Below, piece by piece: positions 1,332 through 1,444 of a DNA stretch of 49,822 bases (position 1 is the first letter of the stretch; each line of letters starts with the position of its first letter). Source of the DNA: an uncultured Geobacter sp. (GTDB lineage Bacteria > Desulfobacterota > Desulfuromonadia > Geobacterales > CAIOGM01); assembly GCA_903857795.1 (NCBI GenBank), contig CAIOGM010000026.1, forward strand, positions 1 through 49,822, read 5' to 3'. A program made the position numbers and the translations under genes. The notes under the pieces were generated by a model that saw only the letters and a program-made list of their open reading frames with translations, was not told where the DNA came from and did no database searches.

Positions 1332-1365
1332 AAAGGCGCCCCAGTGTTTGATCCAGGGCGCCTTT
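1332..1365 (-). terminator. Intrinsic-terminator hairpin in the nifH leader (probable attenuator)
   Basis: Read on the minus strand, AAAGGCGCCC (1365-1356) pairs perfectly with GGGCGCCTTT (1341-1332) around a 14-base loop, followed by TTTTCGTTTG. This is a GC-rich stem plus a U-rich tract, located between the nif promoter and the nifH start. Because it precedes rather than follows the gene, its likely role is conditional termination. Its 5' arm is shared with hairpin P2, so the two cannot form together. Confidence 0.75.
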
Positions 1366-1376
1366 GCCGGAAGGGC
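1360..1376 (-). promoter_or_regulatory. Leader hairpin P2, competes with terminator
   Basis: On the minus strand GCCCTT pairs with AAGGC (one bulged C) around the six-base loop CCGGCA. The 3' arm AAGGC is also the start of the 5' arm of the terminator, so forming P2 would block termination. It directly abuts hairpin P1. Two adjacent small hairpins with hexaloops are the layout of known ANTAR-protein targets. Loop position 4 is G, as in the usual consensus, but position 1 is C rather than A. Confidence 0.5.
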
Positions 1377-1394
1377 GAAGACTCCTGCGTCTTC
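1377..1394 (-). promoter_or_regulatory. Leader hairpin P1 (hexaloop), candidate ANTAR target
   Basis: On the minus strand GAAGAC-GCAGGA-GTCTTC is a perfect 6-bp stem closing a hexaloop, extendable by five further pairs (one G-U) to 1372-1399. Loop position 4 is G as expected for ANTAR targets; position 1 is G rather than the usual A. It lies ~25-40 nt downstream of the predicted transcription start. The extended stem would use bases of P2, so the short form is the one compatible with a tandem arrangement. Confidence 0.55.
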
Positions 1395-1428
1395 ACCCTG
1401 CATTCTTCTTGAGTTGTATCTACCCTAT

Positions 1429-1444
1429 TGCACTCACCATGCCA
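1429..1444 (-). promoter_or_regulatory. Sigma-54 promoter for nifHD
   Basis: The minus strand reads TGGCATGGTGAGTGCA, matching TGGCAY-N5-TTGCA except one base, with exact GG-N10-GC spacing for the -24/-12 elements. Transcription would start near 1418, leaving a leader of about 145 nt. I do not see a clear NifA-type TGT-N10-ACA site in the ~85 bases upstream before gnfR, so the activator may be an NtrC-like protein (GnfM in G. sulfurreducens) or may bind further away. Confidence 0.8.

Follow-up and report, generated by a model that had tools for sequence, protein, structure and literature searches.

The nifH leader of an uncultured Geobacter sp. as a predicted ANTAR-regulated attenuator

The leader of nifH in this uncultured Geobacter sp. 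is very probably an ANTAR-regulated attenuator, relieved by classical antitermination through an ortholog of GnfR, and sequence comparison lends good support to control of nifHD by the neighbouring regulator through ANTAR antitermination. The window, by which we mean the whole stretch of 49,822 nucleotides analysed, carries the entire attenuator on its minus strand, between a receiver-ANTAR gene and nifH (Table 1), with nifD lying 3' of nifH and continuing past the window start. The nitrogenase RNA switch of Geobacter relatives can thereby be defined base by base, and a new recognition rule, proposed in an earlier sequence-only reading of this DNA, is replaced by a corrected second hairpin (P2).

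The nifH leader and its mutually exclusive folds

The sigma-54 promoter that the sequence-only reading had placed before nifH was recovered and recurs in the leaders of relatives, a comparable motif standing 5' of the element in 84/88 nifH leaders of the order; from this site, the RNA would be expected to start near position 1418. Pfam identified both receiver and ANTAR domains in the product of the neighbouring upstream gene, in agreement with its earlier description as an ANTAR response regulator. Leader folding stood 3.8 SD above dinucleotide shuffles; a plus-strand fold was discarded as representing the wrong strand, the element being on the minus strand. The nifH sample used for comparison consisted of 90 upstream regions from the order.

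Table 1. Predicted features of the nifH leader and its flanking genes, in window coordinates.
Feature	Position	Strand	Basis
GnfR-like response regulator, receiver + ANTAR, 188 aa	1531..2097	-	Pfam
Sigma-54 promoter, TTGGCATGGTGAGTGCAA	1428..1445	-	sequence; same motif in relatives
P1 hairpin, 11 perfect pairs	1372..1399	-	fold, -19.0 kcal/mol; covariation
P1 conserved 6-bp core, GAAGAC[GCAGGA]GTCTTC	1394-1377	-	covariation, 37 leaders
P1 hexaloop GCAGGA (G1, G4)	1388-1383	-	loop counts, 37 leaders
P2 hairpin GGC[AAAGGC]GCC, antiterminator half	1357..1368	-	conservation; nascent fold
P2 hexaloop AAAGGC (A1, G4)	1365-1360	-	ANTAR consensus match
Intrinsic terminator, stem AAAGGCGCCC / GGGCGCCTTT, U-rich tail	1326..1365	-	fold, -22.0 kcal/mol
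Terminator arms and tail	5' arm 1365-1356; 3' arm 1341-1332; tail to 1326	-	fold
TTTGCCCC, 3' of terminator	1321..1328	-	conserved in most leaders
P3 hairpin GTCCAC[GGATTG]GTGGAC, adjoining the nifH Shine-Dalgarno	1288..1305	-	covariation
nifH Shine-Dalgarno AAAGGAG	1280..1286	-	sequence
nifH	406..1272	-	Pfam Fer4_NifH, 1.6e-131

The first hairpin (P1), read previously as a 6-bp stem with a GCAGGA loop, was confirmed in its core and extends to 11 pairs. Covariation, proposed then as a check, was found in its stem: in the alignment of the 37 P1-bearing leaders six P1 pairs are formed at 99.1%, with two-sided changes at four of them, and the covariation score of P1 and terminator together was reached by none of 500 shuffles. 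Loop position 4 is G in all 37 leaders; at position 1, 20 leaders have G, like the window, and 17 have A. A cytosine at position 5, which would permit a 1-5 pair across the loop, was present in 12/20 G1 loops vs 3/17 A1 loops (nominal p 0.018, kinship ignored); a role for A1 as the blocker of this pair was rejected as an explanation, the counts being at most a hint.

Folding of the full-length leader RNA, likewise suggested beforehand, gave P1 and the terminator, whose stem and U tract were as anticipated, whereas a shortened nascent RNA ending just before the terminator 3' arm folded as P1 and the corrected P2. The two competing structures have bases 1365-1357 in common; their overlap had been noted in the sequence-only reading, but it is larger than the AAGGC given there and takes in the entire P2 loop and 3' arm. 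Position 3 of the P2 loop is free, and in relatives the terminator 3' arm usually changes with it. A simple terminator scan of the window missed the nifH-leader terminator, presumably because part of the T run is within the stem. In readthrough RNA, TTGCCCC downstream of it (1328-1321, minus strand) is able to base-pair with the GGGGC stretch in the 3' arm of the terminator, and the mean fold with the TTTGCCCC region was 2 kcal/mol better than with shuffled downstream sequence; tentatively, this pairing may favour the readthrough fold.

The motif GGCAANGGCGCC, a 3-bp GGC/GCC hairpin with hexaloop AANGGC, occurs in 86/90 nifH leaders of the order, with a near match in 2 more. Among 73 distinct P2 sequences, collected at nifH, at other genes and in further families of the phylum by a search pattern that allowed G/A at the second base and C/T at its partner and did not impose pairing of both, the inner three pairs are formed in all 73 (GAC/GTC in 5), A1 is present in 72 and G4 in 73; in the ANTAR loop consensus the first base is A and the fourth is G (PMC3369931). 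The inner stem is constant in the nifH leaders of the order, so that the covariation of P2 has to be drawn from the outer pairs and from more remote hits, and P2 itself is weak (-2.8 kcal/mol). The sequence-only reading had instead drawn P2 as CCTT[CCGGCA]AAGG, from which it followed that both loops lacked A1 and that the clade might have a different recognition rule. That hairpin can form in the window sequence, at -1.1 kcal/mol, yet it is paired in 47% of cells, shows no covariation and does no better than slid controls, and GGC[AAAGGC]GCC is nearly invariant among nifH leaders, so we give the older register and its rule practically no credence. The lack of A1 thus stands for P1, which has G1, and falls for P2, which has A1 in AAAGGC; the clade-specific rule, which rested on the misplaced P2, is not supported. 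As predicted here, the corrected P2 conforms to the known ANTAR rule and a new one is unnecessary.

The regulator and the distribution of its element

The GnfR-like protein encoded next to the leader is the sole ANTAR protein of this genome, and its closest solved structures are the PdtaR/Rv1626-type antiterminator 1s8n and EutV 6wsh. Receiver residues D8, D9, D53, T80 and K102 are present and invariant, which is consistent with phosphorylation dependence of the regulator. A receiver-ANTAR gene lies directly upstream of nifH also in G001-G003 and several other relatives. In G. sulfurreducens, gnfR (GSU2822) likewise adjoins nifH. The assignment of gnfR to that locus tag is published (PMC7962754).

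In a sample of the phylum outside the order, an ANTAR protein was found in 19/22 genomes with the element vs 98/267 without (p 6e-6), and in G149, G156, G256, G309, G333, G334 and G417 an ANTAR gene on the same strand stands a short way upstream of the element. No ANTAR domain was detected in G010 and G011, two near-complete genomes of one genus that keep the element (L240, G010:C17 44857-44961, which stands before nifE, and G011:C85 4159-4284).

Covariance model R1 returned two clear elements in the genome studied here, before nifH (E 7e-10) and before a nifEN fusion gene (E 5e-4), and it had matches in 126/141 genomes of the order. Further genes 3' of the element, among those sampled, were nifX, a TorF-like porin and another putative outer-membrane protein. 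A complete P1-P2-terminator-P3 leader (L252, G018:C122, 15755-15615, minus strand) also stands before a gene that by eye resembles DraT, the nitrogenase reductase ADP-ribosyltransferase, an identity for which there was no confirming NCBIfam match.

Leaders without P1 and the P3 hairpin

P1 was called in the leader survey where the loop had a purine at position 1 and G4 and the stem reached -2 kcal/mol or better. On this basis it was present in 77% of nifH leaders of family f3 and in 7/7 porin-type leaders, and in 0/37 nifH leaders of family f4 (e.g. L121, L190 and L204, which retain P2 and terminator) and 0/10 nifEN leaders, including the one of this genome (L207, C147:6089-6179, minus strand). 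The RNA 5' of P2 in the P1-less leaders is short and unstructured (mean -1.9 and -1.0 kcal/mol, no better than shuffles), and a search for P1 there gave no signal above shuffles; possible remnants of 2-3 bp were seen by eye in G070, G071 and G072.

P1-less leaders retain P2 with invariant A1 and G4. Their P2 stem has at least 4 pairs in 45/49 cases vs 10/51 f1-f3 nifH leaders, a group in which P1 is mostly present (Fisher p 5e-14, kinship ignored; the counts omit the P1-bearing L252 and the unclear L254). The extra pair of f4 covaries (AU 16, CG 10, GU 3, UA 1), and where it is CG it costs the terminator a G-G mismatch. Binding by EutV requires both stems (Ramesh 2012, PMC3369931). With one ANTAR protein and both leader designs in the same genome, either one hairpin is enough for the protein to act, or the leaders that lack P1 are operated in another way. 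Such a genome offers a natural internal comparison (nifH with P1 and P2, nifEN with P2 only, one ANTAR protein), in which the need of ANTAR proteins for two hairpins becomes directly testable.

A further hairpin (P3) adjoins the nifH Shine-Dalgarno and shows two-sided changes at 6/6 pairs in 51 distinct relatives, with a covariation score of 0.42 vs 0.20 for shuffled sequence. Its loop follows the pattern [R]GAUNN, in which GAU alone is invariant; with U at loop position 4 it is not of the ANTAR type. A covariance model of P3 gave strong matches at about one per genome in approximately 86/141 genomes, nearly all immediately 5' of nifH. Rfam had no match to P3, and a description of it was not found in the literature searched, which is weak evidence of novelty. 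The loop contains GGA, as a CsrA site would, in the window and AGA in 17/59 relatives, and the occurrence of AGAU loops makes a strict CsrA site doubtful. Genus g12 lacks P3 and has in its place a closed branched structure of about 120 nt with no Rfam match (L160-L170, last 135 nt before nifH). Tentatively, and doubting it slightly more than we believe it, we advance a joint proposal: one hexaloop hairpin can suffice for antitermination by ANTAR proteins, and P3 is a hitherto undescribed RNA element, specific to nifH, at the Shine-Dalgarno. If this were true, the tandem-hairpin rule would be optional and exchanged for P2 stability.

Proposed mechanism and comparison with known systems

In the mechanism that we infer, sigma-54 RNA polymerase would start transcription near 1418 and the default fold would be P1 followed by the strong terminator (1365-1326), so that transcription would end before nifHD. 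On a signal that is probably nitrogen limitation, the adjacent GnfR-like protein would be phosphorylated by its kinase and dimerise, and the dimer would bind the leader, gripping the P1 and P2 hexaloops via flipped G4 bases and stabilising the weak P2. Because the P2 loop and 3' arm are the terminator 5' arm, the terminator would then be unable to form, and readthrough into nifHD would follow, which sets the presumed direction of control. The antitermination proposed in the sequence-only reading survives, carried by P1 covariation, the exclusion of the terminator by P2, a lone adjacent ANTAR gene and co-occurrence; only its different rule is given up.

The P1-less leaders and the ANTAR-less G010 and G011 are a misfit to a model of two hairpins and an ANTAR protein, and the persistence of the P2-terminator element in both would suit a plain attenuator or constitutive terminator, with readthrough set by another RNA-binding protein, translation or folding kinetics. 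Such a device would not account for the conserved loop bases (A1 and G4 of P2, G4 of P1), nor for the co-occurrence of the element with ANTAR and the adjacency of the ANTAR gene, and we consider it unlikely. Still less probable, to the point of being very hard to sustain, is leader control that is mainly translational via P3, with the upstream hairpins secondary: strong covariation, specificity to nifH and a position beside the Shine-Dalgarno would agree with it, but P3 is transcribed only once the terminator has been passed, its loop has the non-ANTAR U noted above, and the attenuator also precedes nifEN and further genes, at which P3 had no strong match.

Antitermination by the adjacent ANTAR regulator, the reading that we prefer, has several precedents. 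Ueki and Lovley reportedly described in 2010 how GnfK and GnfR act on the nif genes of Geobacter sulfurreducens by antitermination. The window is like that system in its ANTAR response regulator, sigma-54 nif promoters and leader terminators, a likeness of components, and as in a GnfR-type locus its receiver-ANTAR gene lies directly 5' of nifH. Pelobacter carbinolicus belongs to the same order as the window organism. ANTAR target RNAs have been predicted at three nif-related units of that species (Ramesh 2012, PMC3369931). The model of that study describes tandem hexaloop hairpins of at least 3 bp, and the window has two, P1 with 6-11 bp and P2 with 3 bp; G4 is found in both loops, and P2 excludes an intrinsic terminator by overlap. 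The model also demands A1 together with G4 in both loops, and here the window differs, P2 having A1 (as in 72/73 sequences) and P1 having G1.

The eut leaders of Enterococcus faecalis and their regulator EutV share with the window tandem hexaloop hairpins, a P2 inside the terminator and a receiver-ANTAR protein (PMC3369931, PMC8934654), and are unlike it in that the P1 loop of the window begins with G. Changes of A1 weakened both binding by EutV and induction (PMC3369931); in the crystal structure of EutV with RNA, G4 is stacked on Tyr164 and A1 has no specific contact (PMC8934654). At EutV-equivalent positions counted from an alignment, Tyr164 becomes Phe in GnfR, and Arg168, Asn173 and Arg177 become Gln, Asp and Ser; the window regulator retains the G4-contacting residues mapped in EutV, with Phe for Tyr. 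Since those residues are kept and A1 lacks a specific contact in EutV, a purine at position 1 of P1 would be a mild relaxation and not a new rule.

Among catalogued RNAs, Rfam RF00625 (P11, Pseudomonas) is like the window in its sigma-54 promoter, a P1 loop (AACGAU) and a P2 overlapping a terminator-like stem; that P2, GGAC[AAAGGC]GUCC, has the same loop as the window P2 and a different stem. Unlike the window element, it is catalogued as an sRNA gene, and the window scored 21.5 bits vs a gathering score of 70 (best relative, 41 bits). P11, matched in L162 at 420-542, is itself built like an ANTAR attenuator under a sigma-54 promoter. Weak Rfam matches to snoRNA, miRNA and BjrC68 were at chance level. 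ANTAR antitermination of nif genes is already known or inferred in relatives and the window is a further example of the class; the P1-less leaders with a longer, covarying P2 stem and the separate covarying GAU-loop hairpin at the nifH Shine-Dalgarno appear to be new.
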